From positions 1 through 64,000 of the forward strand of contig NZ_BBDN01000006.1 in assembly GCF_001316265.1 (NCBI RefSeq): a stretch of 64,000 bases of DNA. Direction: 5' to 3'. The stretch is from Vulcanisaeta sp. JCM 16159. GTDB taxonomy: Archaea; Thermoproteota; Thermoprotei; Thermoproteales; Thermocladiaceae. Under the pieces are notes generated by a model that worked only from the letters and a program-made list of their open reading frames with translations, made no database searches and was not told where the DNA came from. This document shows, in pieces, positions 57,803 through 63,684 of this stretch. The first letter of the stretch is position 1. Each line of letters opens with the position of its first letter. Both the position numbers and the translations under genes were made by a program.

Positions 57803-57871
57803 AATGCCGTGATTAATAACCCCTATAAATTGATTTGCCGGTAGTCGTGATTAATCCAACATTTAGGTATA

Positions 57872-57879
57872 GATTTTTA
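57872..57879 (+). promoter_or_regulatory. TATA element at the head of the helicase/HerA block
   Basis: TTTTTAAA lies about 27 bases before the ATG at 57903, the first of several closely spaced same-strand genes. Confidence 0.5.
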
Positions 57880-57902
57880 AAGAGCCATTCTTATATAACT
57901 CG

Positions 57903-58319
57903 ATGTCGGCGTCGGCACTTAACATAAATCCATTAATGTACAGGTTCGTTAGGTACTGCCTAAATAGGGCCTACTTGGGGCTCGATGATTCTAAATCATC
58001 AGCTGATGAGAGGTATAGCCTAGAAACAATACTATCAATTATTAGGCAGGCTGAGGATAACTGGAAAGATATTAGCAATATTGTTGACTTCATAAGCAAC
58101 GAATTACTGAAGATATATGGAGAGGCCCTTGAGAGACTTCCGGATAAGATAGTTGATAAGTTATTTGAGAAAGTGTTAAATAATTGTAAGGAGCTTGATG
58201 AGGTTAAGACAGACCCAAGGGTGCTTAATGCCATTAATAATGCCCTTGAGAGTATGAAGGGAATTAAGAAGAAGTTTCTTGAGGGCTCTAAGACGCGGAT
58301 TTACGAACCCTCTGCATAG
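57903..58319 (+). CDS. Hypothetical all-helical protein, 138 aa
   Basis: Almost wholly alpha-helical by composition (YSLETILSIIRQAEDNWKDI, VDFISNELLKIYGEALERL, VLNAINNALESMKGIKKKFL). No Cys and no membrane segment. It is 35 bases ahead of the XPD-like helicase and probably co-transcribed, so it may be an accessory factor. No family recognised. Confidence 0.6.
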   Translation: MSASALNINPLMYRFVRYCLNRAYLGLDDSKSSADERYSLETILSIIRQAEDNWKDISNIVDFISNELLKIYGEALERLPDKIVDKLFEKVLNNCKELDEVKTDPRVLNAINNALESMKGIKKKFLEGSKTRIYEPSA

Positions 58320-58354
58320 TGCCTAATTAATTGATTTGGGTCATAACTATTGGA

Positions 58355-59951
58355 ATGGATATTACCGATTACATATACTCAGTATTAAGGAAGAAGGATA
58401 TTATCTTATTAAATGCTTATCCAGGCTTTGGTAAGTCCAGGATAGCGATAGCGGTGGCGATGAAGTGGGTTAATGATGGTGGGCAGGTATTAATAATAAC
58501 TAAGTCCAGGGCCGAGGCACTGCAGCTTTGCGAATTTACTAGAAGGGCTGGTATCAGGGATAGAACCTCCCTATTCCTTGGCAGGGAGTCACTATGTCCA
58601 TTTAATGCACATAATTCTAAGCAGTGCTTCCTATATAGGTTAAATGGTGTATGTAAAGTCAAGAGGACCGAAGTTACATTACCTATAATGACTTGCAACC
58701 CCCTTGACCTGTTTAGTGATGGCTTATGCCCATACGAGGTTAATGAAGCCCTAGCCTATCAATTACCCATAGTAATATCAACCCACGCGTACTTATCAAG
58801 CCCTGAACTCTATGGTAAGATAATGAGTATCATCAATACCTGGAACAAGCCCCTTGTGATCATCGATGAGTTCCATAATGTAGCGGTGGGTCTTGAGGAG
58901 TCTACGTTCATTAAGATTGATGAATTGAGGCGATGGGCATCAAGTGGCAATGACCTAGCCAGCAAATTACTCGATAGGATAAATGGTTATACACCAGAGA
59001 GGGAAGTCGTGATACTGAGGAGGTTTGATATTGATGATTTATTAAAGGGGTCAGAATCAATCGACGATAAAGTTATTGAAATACTTACTCACTTTGGGAA
59101 TGACTTATGTGCATTTACATACGATGGTGACCTAGTTAAGCTAAGGTGTCTCTCATTAAGGCCTATCCGTGATTTAATAATGAAATCACAAAAGGTTCTT
59201 CTCCTAACGGCATCTATTAGCAAAAGATTTTCATACATAGTGAACATTTTCTCTAGGCCTTCGTATTACATAACTGTGGATTCCCTACCTAAGGAGTATC
59301 TGGAAAATCTTGTTGTTTTTTTCTGTAAGGGATGTTGAATTTACGCATAGAAACAGGTTATTGAAGGAGTACCTGGACATCGTCGATAGAAGCATTAAGG
59401 CTTTTATTGAAGCATCACCGCCAGTCGGTGGTTTAGCCGTATTCTTTCCAAGCATTGAGTATATGAATTCATACATTAATCAATACACCCCACCAGTTTG
59501 GGGGATTCCAACTTTCATACTCAGAGATGGTTCTGAGGCCGTAAATGCCATAGGGGTGTTTAAGGAGAATGCCAGGGTCACCAAGTCATTAATAATAACG
59601 TATGCCCAGAACCCAATTGGTGAAGGCATAAACTTTCTCGAGCAGGAGTTAATCGGCGTTATGATTATTGGATTTCCACTACCTCAATACAACCAATGGG
59701 GTTTCTTAAAGTCGCGTTATTACGGAAAACTAGGGATAAGTGGGTTTACAACCACGTTCTTATTCCCAGCCATATCAACCACAATACAAATAATTGGTAG
59801 GTTACTTAGGGATTTGGATAGGCACAAGAAGGTCGCTGTTTTACTTGATGGTAGATTTTATCGCTATAGAAAATACATGCCTAAATGGCTTATGTCTAGG
59901 ATAAAACCAATAAGGCTCTTCCAATTACTAAATGAGTCGCTATGGCGATGA
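58355..59951 (+). CDS. XPD/DinG-like Fe-S SF2 helicase (one homopolymer frameshift)
   Basis: Motif I NAYPGFGKSRIAIAVAM, then a Cys set typical of the Fe-S insertion (ESLCPFNAHNSKQCFLYRL, GVCKVKR, MTCNPLDLFSDGLCPYEV), motif II LVIIDEFHN in place of DEAH, motif III LLLTASISKRF and motif VI TIQIIGRLLRDLDRHKKVAV. A run of seven T near 59315-59321 shifts the frame; one base fewer joins VVFF to SVRDVEF. About 530 residues, smaller than canonical XPD (about 600-650), and the DEFH box is unusual. A 5'-3' DNA helicase is likely. ATG 58355 preferred over an upstream TTG. Confidence 0.8.
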
Positions 59952-59990
59952 GTCATTGAGTGCCTTATAAGTCCTGTTGGGAGTTTCATA

Positions 59991-61002
59991 ATGAGGTGTA
60001 TGGACATACTGGGCATTAGTGCGATTGTAATACCCACTTCATTAATCATTGCATCATTAATGAAGGAATTCTCGGCGGACAATGTTACAGTGGGTACACG
60101 ATTCATGATGCCCTATAAAGTATCACTTGATAGGCATTTATGTATTCTTGGCCCCACCAGGTGGTAAGTCATCACTTGTTAAGGCCATGATTAAGAAGCT
60201 TCGTAGAAAATACGTGGTTACAGTGCTTGACTGGCATGGCGAGTACACGGGGTTATTACCAACATTACCAACCTCGGCAATTAATATAGATCTTGAGAAG
60301 CTTCCACCTAAGTTATTGACTGAGATCCTGGGCTTTGGTCTGGGGCTTAATGAGCCGAGTATGTACATGCTGTATAGGATGATCCGTGATGGTAATTACA
60401 CGAACTTTAATGATTTAATAAATAAGATAGATAATTACCTTGTTAGTACCAGGACAGAGGCTGAGATGAAGGCAGCTATACTGAGGAGACTTGAGTATTC
60501 AGCTATGAACATTGGTAAGGGTATTGTGGATATTAATTCGTTAGTAGAGGGTGACGCTGTTATAGATCTTAGTGACCTGACGATTATTGAGGAGAAGAGA
60601 CTCGTCTCTTCATTAATACTGGCAGCACTGTACATGCATTACATGAGGAGGGGTTTAATCGAGAAGGGTGTTAGGCATGTATTGATTATTGAGGAGGCCC
60701 AGAACCTACTCGACATAGATAGCTCCAGTTACTCAATAATTGATCACATAATAATGGAATTGGCCAAGTACGGGTTGAGGGTTGTCCTAGTTAGTAATGC
60801 TGTGCCTAAATCATCGATATTAAAGCATTGTAATATAGTGCTGTTTAAGATAAATCCTGAATTATTGGATGGTGAGATAATGTTTTCCAGGAACCTAATT
60901 AATAAGTTGAATGAAATATCCACTGAGGAGGCAATAGTAATAAGTAGTAAGGGCATTACAAGGGTGAGGCCATTAAGGCAACAATTGAGCCAACCCATGT
61001 AG
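59991..61002 (+). CDS. HerA-like ATPase (one frameshift in the P-loop)
   Basis: The N-terminal frame MRCMDILGISAIVIPTSLII then VGTRFMMPYKVSLDRHLCIL leads to the P-loop, where the frame shifts (LGPT / GGKSSLVKAMIKKLRRKY). Next come VVTVLDWHGEYTGLL, typical of HerA/FtsK-type pumps, Walker B HVLIIEEAQNLLD, and a C-terminal ATPase segment GLRVVLVSNAVPKSSILKHC. About 335 residues, shorter than HerA (about 500), because the N-terminal beta-barrel is much reduced. NurA, HerA's usual nuclease partner, is not adjacent; an XPD-like helicase is instead. Confidence 0.78.
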
Positions 61003-61058
61003 TTATTAGAAGACTTAGTGAGCTAGGAAATGGATCTTTTCAGGATATTAATACTAAC

Positions 61059-61409
61059 ATGATAAACAGTGTAAACAGTAATTTATTACTAAATAATAAA
61101 CCCATGGCTGAAACGGATAACCAAGTAAGTACCAATAACGAGATCGTGAGTAGGGTAAATGAAGCCCCAGGTCATGATAAAAGGGCAATGGTAAGGCAGG
61201 TAAGCCCTGATAATGGCGGGTCAACGCTACTTAATAGCGCAGTAATAAATAATGGGGATTCGCTATTTAGGAAACAAATAATGGAGTTGGAAAAAGAGGT
61301 TGTTAATTTACGTGACAAGGTTAATGAAATAGAAAGAATACTAGATGCGGATGAAAAGCTCATCGAGAAGATACTGGAGCTTGATGGCAAATTGAAAAAT
61401 GACATGTAA
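61059..61409 (+). CDS. Coiled-coil protein, 116 aa
   Basis: An Asn/Ser/Val-rich disordered N-terminal 70 residues is followed by a clear heptad helix (LFRKQIMELEKEVVNLRDKV then NEIERILDADEKLIEKILEL). Fifty-six bases after the HerA-like gene. Such small coiled coils are often partners or linkers of ring ATPases. No family recognised. Confidence 0.6.
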   Translation: MINSVNSNLLLNNKPMAETDNQVSTNNEIVSRVNEAPGHDKRAMVRQVSPDNGGSTLLNSAVINNGDSLFRKQIMELEKEVVNLRDKVNEIERILDADEKLIEKILELDGKLKNDM

Positions 61410-61489
61410 TTAGTTATAAAGAGATTTCTTGGAACTCTAACGTTTACTACTGCGGGAGTGTCACAATTTCTGAATTTATTTATTTAAGC

Positions 61490-61498
61490 GGATATATA
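61490..61498 (+). promoter_or_regulatory. TATA element for the winged-helix/M48 pair
   Basis: GGATATATA lies about 24 bases before the ATG at 61518, so this part of the block may be transcribed separately. Confidence 0.45.
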
Positions 61499-61517
61499 CG
61501 GAAACCCTGGTGCCCTA

Positions 61518-61955
61518 ATGACAACCTCGGAAAACTTAATGGTGGATACAAAGAAGGTGAAGATTCTAATACTTCAGATGTTAAAGGACATGGTCCTCAA
61601 CGCAAAGGGTCAACTAATAACCTTCAGGCCCGCGAAGGTCGCCCAGGACATATCCATTTGGACAAGGAAGAGTCCACGTTCTGAATCAGTCATAGTCAGG
61701 AATTTCCTTGAGGAGCTTGTTGAGCTTGGTCTCATTAGGGTTATTAAGAGGAGTGCTAGGGGTAAGGTCTACGGTATAATGAGAAACACCGAGTTCTGGC
61801 TCATTCTTGAGCATAACAATGTTCATGAGATACTATCCTTCATTGATGGTTATAAATCCACGAGAAGAGGTAATACTAGTATAAATATGCTGAGGGAATT
61901 AGCTAATGCCCAAAAAAATAAACCTGGCACAGACAGCCACGAATGGCGGCAATAA
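61518..61955 (+). CDS. Winged-helix DNA-binding protein, 145 aa
   Basis: A winged-helix core: VKILILQMLKDMVLNAKGQL, ESVIVRNFLEELVELGLIRV then IKRSARGKVYGIMRNTEF with the wing. A basic, disordered C-terminal tail (about 35 residues). Its stop overlaps the M48 protease start by 13 bases, so the two are translationally linked. Probably a transcription factor, perhaps of this block. Confidence 0.65.
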   Translation: MTTSENLMVDTKKVKILILQMLKDMVLNAKGQLITFRPAKVAQDISIWTRKSPRSESVIVRNFLEELVELGLIRVIKRSARGKVYGIMRNTEFWLILEHNNVHEILSFIDGYKSTRRGNTSINMLRELANAQKNKPGTDSHEWRQ

Positions 61956-63190
61956 GAATATATCAAATAATCCGTGATTTAATTAAAGATCCTCAATCCC
62001 TAATTAATTATGTAGAGGATTATTTATTGAAGATCGCTGGTTTGTTGTACGTGACTAGGGAGATCAACAGTGATATTGCTAGGTTGATGGTGTATGGTGA
62101 TGATGGAAATGCCGAGTTAAGCATTAATCATGAGGTGAGAATAAGGGGTCGTGGTAAGGTAAAGGATCTTGTAAATGCACTGATCCTAAGGTATCTGGGC
62201 ACTGATGGCGTACGTAGAATAACAATACTTCTCATAAAGAGGAAAAATAGGATTTATAGGGTTAATGATTTGCCAAGGGCCTACTCACCGCCTGTTGGCT
62301 TAATATGGCTTATGTTAATATCAATAATGGTGCTATCAATAATTATTGCTGTATTGAGAATTGTTAATGCAATACCATCACTACACCTAATAATAGTATT
62401 GCTCCTATCACCACTTTTAATACCAATTATTTATTCATACATATTACGATTAAAAATTAGACGTGGTGATTTAAGAAATGCACAAATAATAAAGTTTGTA
62501 CTGGAGTACGGGGATTTTGATGAGAAGAGGTTTAACGAGGCTTTACGACTTTTATCTAGAATTGAAAATATAAAATCACTAAATGAAATAAGGAGATTTC
62601 TAATGCTATTGGTGAGCAACTCAAGAACAAGACCACAAAACTTCTATGAGGAGGAGATAAACGTTAACGACTTAATTAGTAGGTTAGGTATTAGGAAGAA
62701 TTATGGCATTTACCTAGTTAATGTAAATCAATGTAACGCGGCATCCATTGGTTTACCCGGCATTAATTACATAATATTAACATCAAGACTTTTATCATGT
62801 CTGAGTACCAATGAGTTAATTGCTGTAATAATGCATGAGGTTGGGCATATTGTTCATGGAGACTCCGCAAAGGCATTGTTCTTAATATCGCTGGTTCAAT
62901 TGGTGAATATTGCACTAATTACCTATATAATTCCATTGATGAGCCTACCAGCGATACCCATAATTATCGTCGCAATATTCTTCGAAATATTTGGCATGGC
63001 ATATATAATGAAATTGAGCGAGTACTCAGCGGATAAGTACGCCCTCAAGTTTGTGCCGAAGAGGGACTTAGCCATGGCATTAATCAGAGTTACTTGGAAG
63101 GAATTACATAATGAATTGGTAAGAAGGAGATTTATTATTTTTGCATCGCACCCGCCAATATCGAGTAGGTTAGCCAGGATTATACGATAA
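61943..63190 (+). CDS. Membrane-bound M48-like metalloprotease, 415 aa
   Basis: Zinc motif HEVGH at residues 298-302 within IAVIMHEVGHIVHGDSAKAL and the third ligand in KLSEYSADKYALKF, followed by FASHPPISSRLARI as in HtpX/Ste24 enzymes. Unlike HtpX at 36913 it has a long N-terminal cytoplasmic part (1-115), a helix pair at about 117-140 and 149-168, and a helical insert (170-240) before the protease domain. It is linked to a winged-helix gene, suggesting regulated proteolysis. Intact. Confidence 0.82.
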   Translation: MAAIRIYQIIRDLIKDPQSLINYVEDYLLKIAGLLYVTREINSDIARLMVYGDDGNAELSINHEVRIRGRGKVKDLVNALILRYLGTDGVRRITILLIKRKNRIYRVNDLPRAYSPPVGLIWLMLISIMVLSIIIAVLRIVNAIPSLHLIIVLLLSPLLIPIIYSYILRLKIRRGDLRNAQIIKFVLEYGDFDEKRFNEALRLLSRIENIKSLNEIRRFLMLLVSNSRTRPQNFYEEEINVNDLISRLGIRKNYGIYLVNVNQCNAASIGLPGINYIILTSRLLSCLSTNELIAVIMHEVGHIVHGDSAKALFLISLVQLVNIALITYIIPLMSLPAIPIIIVAIFFEIFGMAYIMKLSEYSADKYALKFVPKRDLAMALIRVTWKELHNELVRRRFIIFASHPPISSRLARIIR

Positions 63191-63261
63191 TTGGTAACTT
63201 ACAATATTTCATTAGTTATTTAATGGTTAGTTTAATTTTTGTCCCTAGTTATGGCGTATAC

Positions 63262-63684
63262 ATGGACTTAATTGAGAAAATGAGTGAATTGAGGATGTTA
63301 ATCAATAGGCTAGAGACTAAGTATCCCGAACTATCGGAATTATCATCATTAATAAATGACATAATAATTAAATGCGTATCATTATCAGACGTATTAATGG
63401 ATATATACTCAATCACGGACTCGGCAATTCATGAGTTAATGCTTGAGGAAAACCCAGCATTAATTAATTTAAATTCAACATTAATTAGGAAGTACCTAGA
63501 CATAGTTAGTAATTCTGAGGACTTAAATGATGCGTTGGCCAAGGTAACGCCTCAGGAACGATCATTATTAATTGATGCGATTAGGATCCTTAAGAAAAAG
63601 GGTATTGTTGACCTTGATATTAATTATGATAATGAGGGGCTCAAAATAAAAATAATAAATAGGGCTAGTAATGAGGGTCCGTGA
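63262..63684 (+). CDS. Hypothetical helical protein, about 140 aa
   Basis: From ATG 63262 (MDLIEKMSELRMLINRLETK) the protein is helical, with ELSSLINDIIIKCVSLSDVL, LIRKYLDIVSNSEDLNDAL and a C-terminal beta hairpin (GIVDLDINYDNEGLKIKII). The frame opens at 63223 but the extension is unconvincing. Overlaps an alternative GTG start of the next gene by four bases. No family recognised. Confidence 0.55.
   Translation: MDLIEKMSELRMLINRLETKYPELSELSSLINDIIIKCVSLSDVLMDIYSITDSAIHELMLEENPALINLNSTLIRKYLDIVSNSEDLNDALAKVTPQERSLLIDAIRILKKKGIVDLDINYDNEGLKIKIINRASNEGP

Follow-up and report, generated by a model that had tools for sequence, protein, structure and literature searches.

At positions 57903–63684 of a 64,000-nucleotide stretch of Vulcanisaeta sp. 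JCM 16159 (contig NZ_BBDN01000006.1, positions 1 to 64,000; 'the window' below), a plus-strand run of open reading frames (ORFs), which we confirmed, encodes among other proteins an XPD-like helicase and a HerA-like ATPase. The gene cluster is found in most sampled members of the order Thermoproteales, and the block is old. Gene order is conserved, the helicase and the ATPase are present or absent together, their catalytic motifs are intact, and the ATPase has a membrane helix and an affinity to CedD. We read the block as two neighbouring modules of Thermoproteales, because a second promoter-like box lies before the winged-helix gene and because the second half survives without the first. Module A would be a membrane-docked DNA motor, composed of a reduced CedD-type ATPase and a small XPD-family iron–sulphur (Fe-S) helicase, and module B would comprise a winged-helix protein, an M48 protease and the small protein p153. 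A further small protein, p138, is encoded upstream of module A.

Joint presence and absence of the helicase and the ATPase

Presence was scored in 45 genomes of the order (G000–G044), an operon ATPase being accepted at E ≤ 1e-40 and an operon helicase at a score of at least 280 bits. Both genes were found in 33 genomes and neither in 12, and no genome had one alone. Two of the 12 lacking genomes are metagenome-assembled genomes of low completeness (G006, 54%; G020, 47%), and without both the counts become 33 and 10. When the state of the pair is followed over a p138 tree, whose 43 rows include 10 from genomes lacking the pair and none from G006 or G023, it changes three times, in Caldivirga plus g4, in g8 and in G039, where Caldivirga is our presumed label for genus g2. 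The count of changes does not tell gain from loss; since both genes occur in all three families of the order, the changes are most simply read as losses.

The small proteins outlive the pair: of the 12 genomes that lack it, 11 still have p138 and the winged-helix protein. An M48 gene adjoins the winged-helix gene in 8 of the 12 genomes; because M48 genes are found commonly, M48 was judged in the losing lineages by its place beside the winged-helix gene (G017 has no M48 match). The initial annotation had proposed an undescribed DNA-processing module, and had said that small proteins in relatives without the helicase or the HerA-like gene would speak against it. What stands of this proposal is the conserved helicase–ATPase pair, for which an undescribed DNA-processing module is a fair description; the block is not supported as one machine, and p138 and the winged-helix protein do occur in such relatives, which goes part of the way against it.

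The ATPase is CedD-like

Placement of the ATPase rests on a tree, a motif and a family model. In a 95-row tree of motor domains, the operon ATPases form one clade (100/100), which is nested in the CedD clade (96/90 when joined to those rows that pass the CedD cut-off), and all CedD-like rows are split from the HerA-like and TedB rows (93/88). A grouping of the operon ATPases with one HerA set was rejected by the approximately unbiased (AU) test (p 0.035). The motif DWx[GN]E[YH], which lies beyond Walker A and has Trp after a conserved Asp, is present in 27 of 27 operon rows (all DW[HNV]GEY), in 11 of 11 CedD rows, in 17 of 17 further CedD-like rows from the phylum and in 18 of 20 class rows. 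It was seen in 1 of 18 other HerA-like rows, one of which, L258, is placed by the tree within the CedD clade. HerA usually carries Asp-Pro at this position.

The best named NCBIfam model for the window ATPase is CedD (NF053655), at 65 bits against a cut-off of 600, and among the 33 genomes with an operon ATPase, this protein is the top match to the model in 27; it is not in G011, G029, G036 and G037, is level with another in G027, and was not judged in G008. The cut-off is passed by 11 of 250 phylum genomes, and the 11 rows over it are presumably from Sulfolobales. Since the operon ATPases do not reach it, we call them CedD-like, not CedD. CedD itself is, according to the 2025 Saccharolobus paper (PMC11868833), an import ATPase that is essential only for DNA import in Saccharolobus, where it is also reported to be induced by DNA damage.

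The operon ATPase resembles the CedD of Sulfolobales (NF053655; PMC11868833) in its HerA/VirB4-type ATPase domain, its N-terminal membrane helix, its DWHGEY-type motif and, tentatively, its place in the tree. It differs from CedD in lacking the N-terminal domain of the latter, in scoring far below 600 bits and in standing in an operon with an XPD-like helicase. By hydropathy, a hydrophobic N-terminal stretch is present in 26 of 27 operon rows, and the Walker A and B residues are invariant in all 27. Walker A starts at residue 28–54 in 21 of these rows and at 64–122 in the other six, which include starts called too far upstream. The AlphaFold2 model of the intact ATPase of a relative (G007) has a helix at residues 6–28, two short strands, the motor, a disordered stretch at 338–419 and a coiled coil at 422–468. 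The two short strands are all that lies between membrane helix and motor in this model, in which the HAS barrel is absent. The fold is shared with the ATPase of HerA–NurA, from which the operon protein differs by a membrane helix in place of the barrel, and Foldseek matches of the model are DndH, HerA, VirB4 and TrwB motors, with HerA chains among the top matches. The short N-terminus and the lack of a barrel, most of which the initial annotation had found missing, are real in intact relatives, whereas the degree of shortness in the window is exaggerated by a frame break. The NurA partner that the annotation also found missing is indeed not recognised among the nine window proteins scanned, a scan that did not extend to the neighbours in relatives.

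Outside the order, a large ATPase gene, n15, precedes a CedD-like gene by a few genes in four class genomes (L295, L296, L299, L300), and in the one member examined (L296, genome G045) n15 is a type II/IV secretion ATPase by Pfam. Between n15 and the CedD-like gene are small membrane genes, one of them type IV pilin-like by eye. In G061, of another family, a 485-residue XPD-like helicase lies directly downstream of a CedD-like gene (L290:549-3511).

A small Fe-S helicase with little room for an Arch domain

The key residues of motifs I, II and VI are invariant in 27 helicase rows, as are the Fe-S cysteines C81, C91, C100 and C125. Searched with the family profile, the PDB gives an XPD, 2vl7, as best match (5e-36), and the nearest solved structures are XPDs. 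The helicase thus shares with XPD/Rad3 these motifs, the four cysteines and its best PDB matches. The Fe-S cysteine set noted initially is borne out by these rows, whereas the DEFH noted with it is not special, the third position being F, S, A or V within the family.

The Arch domain of XPD lies between motifs II and III. This interval is 160 residues in two full-length XPDs (628 and 641 residues), 93–124 in 13 of the operon rows and 42–45 in the 14 rows from Thermoproteaceae, whose helicases are 398–410 residues long. Because the interval is so short, the Thermoproteaceae proteins would have no room for an Arch domain; judged by length alone, the domain is predicted to be absent there and reduced in the other rows. 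The same genomes also carry longer XPD-family matches, mostly of about 575–670 residues.

Gene models in the window

The same-strand block is real, and the recurrence of its families and their order across Thermoproteales is more than chance. The seven genes first counted become six, since the helicase was cut by a frame break and the ORFs read as HerA and as a separate coiled-coil gene are one gene. The mended genes encode p138, the XPD-like helicase, the HerA-like ATPase with its coiled-coil tail, the winged-helix protein, the M48 protease and p153. The features, all on the plus strand, are as follows.

57870–57880 (+): TATA-like box before p138, whose start codon is at 57903; TAG[AG]TTTTTAA in 8 of 8 Vulcanisaeta rows; putative promoter
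57903–58319 (+): p138, all-helical orphan found only in the order; no family match (profile and AlphaFold2)
58331–59951 (+): XPD-like Fe-S helicase with a frame break near 59310 (Pfam, tblastn and PDB profile match)
59991–61409 (+): CedD-like/HerA-like ATPase; membrane helix at the N-terminus, disordered linker before a coiled coil at the C-terminus (tblastn, G007 model, tree and motif)
61059–61409 (+): C-terminal tail of the ATPase, initially read as a 'coiled coil' ORF (fusion in relatives, G007 model)
61434–61496 (+): near-inverted repeat ACTCT...AGTGT, with a AATTTATTTATTTAAG box, ahead of the winged-helix gene (Vulcanisaeta alignment); candidate operator and promoter
61518–61955 (+): winged-helix protein, its C-terminal end altered by a frame break near 61912; no family match, label from the initial annotation
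61943–63190 (+): membrane M48 metalloprotease, HEVGH at residue 298 (PF01435, 79.7 bits; hydrophobic segments)
63223–63684 (+): p153, small protein (position; layout similar to that of F12)

The XPD-type helicase, HerA/DUF87 ATPase and M48 peptidase identities first proposed are each above the Pfam cut-off: the window helicase scores 23.5 bits for DEAD_2 (cut-off 21) and 68.2 for Helicase_C_2 (cut-off 25.3), the ATPase 33.4 for HerA/DUF87 (cut-off 23.2) and the protease 79.7 for PF01435 (cut-off 20.3), the last with its HExxH (HEVGH) at residue 298 and hydrophobic segments. Scans of p138, the coiled coil, the winged-helix protein and p153 against Pfam and NCBIfam gave nothing above cut-off, and low-scoring names were dropped.

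Frame breaks were located by comparing intact proteins of G007 with the source genome by tblastn. The helicase here consists of ORFs 58331–59338 and 59310–59951 in different frames, where intact relatives have one ORF of 398–574 residues, and the ATPase gene (59991–61409) is in three pieces over two frames, with breaks near 60110–60160 and 60950–60980. Because this comparison shows that the ORFs as read are not genes, the 'coiled coil' (61059–61409) is the ATPase tail, fused to the motor in Vulcanisaeta and genus g3, and the short N-terminus of the ATPase is overstated here. A break near 61912 makes the last residues of the winged-helix protein differ from those of relatives. Altogether, 6 of 13 G007 genes compared are split over frames here (L128:1-19001, corresponding to 57000–76000 of its own genome), three of six inside the block and three of seven outside it. 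As split genes are also common outside, the breaks look like draft-assembly indels, not decay of the block. Among the split genes outside the block is the neighbour F8, which lies over three frames, and ORF-based readings of the source genome should expect cut genes.

Gene order in relatives

Gene order was compared over 54 regions, in which genes of relatives were called as longest ORFs and grouped by blastp. Broken and near-identical members were left out of the row sets, so that A1 has 28 of the 37 p138 rows clustered, A2 has 22 rows drawn from four clusters, and A3, A4 and A5 have 27 of 36, 27 of 40 and 25 of 35, respectively. Vulcanisaeta and genus g3 have p138, the helicase, the ATPase fused to its coiled coil, the winged-helix gene and M48 in that order, with p153 in most Vulcanisaeta. 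Most Thermoproteaceae have p138, a helicase of 398–410 residues, an ATPase of 281–376 residues (longest ORF), F11, the winged-helix gene, M48 and F12. F11 is a separate ORF of 60–80 residues that occupies the coiled-coil position in 12 Thermoproteaceae regions; its homology to the ATPase tail is suggested by place, not by hhalign, which gives only 63%. In G026 (family f3) one extra gene stands between p138 and the helicase, which is followed by the ATPase.

The block is split in G036, G004 and G031. An ATPase that is not beside the helicase and is kept elsewhere was found in G028, G029, G036 and G004; in G029 and G028 (L126:8102-8986, L127:7815-8699) it stands beside a glutamine-synthetase-like gene, with ArsA-like ATPases nearby in G029. 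Among the lineages without the pair, g8 and G039 have p138, the winged-helix gene and M48 together, whilst in three Caldivirga regions the winged-helix and M48 genes are divergent neighbours, apart from p138. In genus g4 (L103, L104, L105), p138 adjoins RecA/KaiC-like and SRP54-like genes and a full-length XPD. The names RecA/KaiC-like, SRP54-like, ArsA-like and glutamine-synthetase-like were read by eye, without a family search.

p138, the winged-helix gene and the downstream genes

A p138 profile matched 24 of 24 order members and none of the 226 others among 250 phylum genomes, and a single-sequence search found p138 in 43 of 61 relatives, all inside the order. The AlphaFold2 model of the protein is all-helical (predicted local distance difference test 88.9), with no match to PDB folds at E ≤ 0.001; the best was weakly globin-like (E ≥ 0.66) and of no use. 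The winged-helix family is present in 44 of 45 order genomes (E ≤ 4.5e-38). Its only PDB lead is Sso10a-2, at E 0.45, and 'winged helix' is the label of the initial annotation. F12, at the p153 position in Thermoproteaceae, has a layout similar to that of p153; hhalign gives 37.8%, so that homology is suggested by place and not by hhalign. A few genes downstream of p153 in Vulcanisaeta is F25, a small membrane protein (L128:8517-8747; 65516–65746 of its own genome, outside the window), which blastp grouped with the gene preceding the CedD-like ATPase of G051.

In the near-inverted repeat before the winged-helix gene, the ACTCT arm is invariant in 7 of 7 Vulcanisaeta rows. The right arm is AGTGT in five, GGTGT in one and AGAGT in one (G005, which thus has ACTCT...AGAGT). 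The repeat could be an operator of the winged-helix gene. The AATTTATTTATTTAAG box nearby is identical in 6 of the 7 rows and changed in L088, the most diverged, and we infer from it that the winged-helix gene has its own promoter in Vulcanisaeta.

Relation to the Ted system

TedB-like matches were counted at E ≤ 1e-6, a loose threshold which takes in other VirB4-like genes. Thirteen genomes keep the pair without any such match, and at E ≤ 1e-40 a TedB-like gene was found in 7 of 33 genomes with the pair versus 1 of 12 without. TedA alone matched in 7 of 61 genomes, too few to inform. What we take to be the Ted locus of G027 was recognised by its place (published gene numbers) and by membrane and Walker patterns, not by named sequence; the HerA-like gene in it scores only 15 bits on the operon ATPase profile. 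TedB-like genes of about 660–680 residues number five in G025 and three in G038.

The Ted system of Thermoproteales belongs to the same order as the operon, and its loci are reported (PMC9905601) to hold a HerA-like helicase. It differs from the operon in that this gene scores so low on the operon profile and in that the two do not co-occur. A role of the operon as an accessory to Ted was rejected on co-occurrence with TedB.

Interpretation and alternatives

The reading that we favour is a membrane-docked helicase-plus-pump for DNA, with import as its task, beside module B; we hold it tentatively, with a confidence that stops a little short of even. The ATPase, with one membrane helix, an FtsK/HerA-type motor and a coiled-coil arm fused or encoded beside it, would form a hexamer at the inner membrane face and drive DNA across or along the membrane. 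The helicase, a 5'–3' single-strand translocase by XPD precedent, would separate or pull one strand on the cytoplasmic side. Together they would most likely serve the import of DNA between cells, the task of CedD in Saccharolobus, and might thereby feed repair. Module B, seemingly with its own promoter, persists without module A, and p138, upstream of module A and likewise persisting without it, may link the two; these roles of p138, the protease and p153 we infer. DNA transfer, one of the options of the initial annotation, has gained weight because the ATPase groups with CedD rather than HerA, in the tree and by the DWx[GN]E[YH] motif. In ComFA/ComEC-type bacterial DNA uptake, a superfamily 2 helicase with a four-cysteine site aids a membrane DNA channel; it differs from the operon in that the pump is unrelated and that a channel protein was not recognised in the operon. 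Literature examined by title and start of abstract, a coverage outside which most subscription papers fall, contained no description of the operon.

Several results weigh against DNA import by such a motor. A Pfam scan of the window proteins brought up no gene for a pore, pilin or nuclease in the operon. The VirB4-like N-terminal domain of CedD is missing (Walker A is at about residue 220 in the CedD model), and operon ATPases reach about 55–98 bits on NF053655 against its cut-off of 600, which is not passed in any of 81 class genomes. Support for the branch uniting operon and CedD rows (93/88) falls short of the 95/80 mark of the tree tool, and a clade of the operon ATPases with all HerA rows is not rejected by the AU test (p 0.40). 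A TedB-like match is present in 20 of 33 genomes with the pair versus 8 of 12 without (Fisher p 1.0), that is, there is no link to Ted. Of 25 regions outside the order, only 3 (G061, G073, G067) have an XPD-like gene close to the CedD-like gene, at a distance of a few genes at most; the G067 match, at 12.6 bits, is a weak fragment on the edge of a contig, and same-strand adjacency occurs in one region only. Finally, the co-occurrence of helicase and ATPase is strong as a pattern and weak as statistics, three changes being too few: a tree-aware sign test with three pairs cannot reach significance.

An alternative, which we consider fairly unlikely, is that the pair acts in repair or end processing, the helicase and the ATPase working on broken chromosomal DNA as a membrane-docked, nuclease-less relative of HerA–NurA. 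XPD and HerA families act in repair, and these established roles, the HerA chains among the top Foldseek matches and the retention of the pair in 13 genomes without a TedB-like match all agree with it. On the other hand, the ATPase clusters with CedD, not HerA, the same genomes have longer XPD-family matches, and NurA, Mre11 and Rad50 had no match among the nine window proteins scanned, relatives not being covered by this search. A membrane helix on an FtsK/HerA-type motor, inherited by descent across most of the order, would also suit chromosome handling at division, where an FtsK-like anchored pump would clear DNA from the division plane with the helicase helping. We regard this as decidedly unlikely, as the pair is missing in lineages that still divide and an FtsK gamma-like domain was not recognised by Pfam in the window ORF.

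The block may also have no shared function, its genes being unrelated ones that have long been neighbours in a compact genome; its splitting in G004, G031 and G036 and the persistence of p138 and the winged-helix gene without the pair fit that view. It is nevertheless unlikely in our judgement, since none of the 45 genomes has the helicase or the ATPase alone, the pair having changed state three times over the p138 tree, and since winged helix and M48 are still adjacent in most of the genomes without the pair. Least probable, and very unlikely, is an anti-virus defence system with a protease effector, as the initial annotation had allowed for defence. HerA-like ATPases occur in many defence systems, and the ATPase has weak matches to the PADLOC HerA models and mad8. 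However, PADLOC named no specific system, giving generic HerA, mad8, PDC-S01 and DinG-type matches only; the best of these for the helicase, typeIV_DinG (141 bits, Vulcanisaeta row), was discarded as generic, because this model scores two full-length XPDs at 298 and 312. Viral contigs, scanned with patterns from the p138 and ATPase profiles, yielded no relative, and the plasmid collection contained no ATPase match. The distribution, 33 of 45 order genomes, follows descent and is not patchy, and on this and the PADLOC controls defence was rejected.

A more specific form of the import reading, which we put forward as doubtful, is that Thermoproteales have an import motor of their own. It would consist of a pared-down CedD, independent of the Ted pilus ATPase, and an Arch-less Fe-S helicase that makes incoming DNA single-stranded; p138 would connect them, as an adaptor specific to the lineage, with a control unit built on the membrane protease.

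Significance

In the published picture (PMC11868833), CedB and CedD belong to other orders and Thermoproteales have a VirB4 (TedB) system in their place. A CedD-type ATPase in 33 of 45 genomes of the order, 13 of them without a TedB-like match, would mean a second or different DNA-exchange motor. An XPD relative with its Fe-S site retained and no space for an Arch domain would offer a natural way to test the purpose of that domain, and p138, in nearly every genome of the order and in none of the 226 others searched, presents a clean target for order-specific biology.

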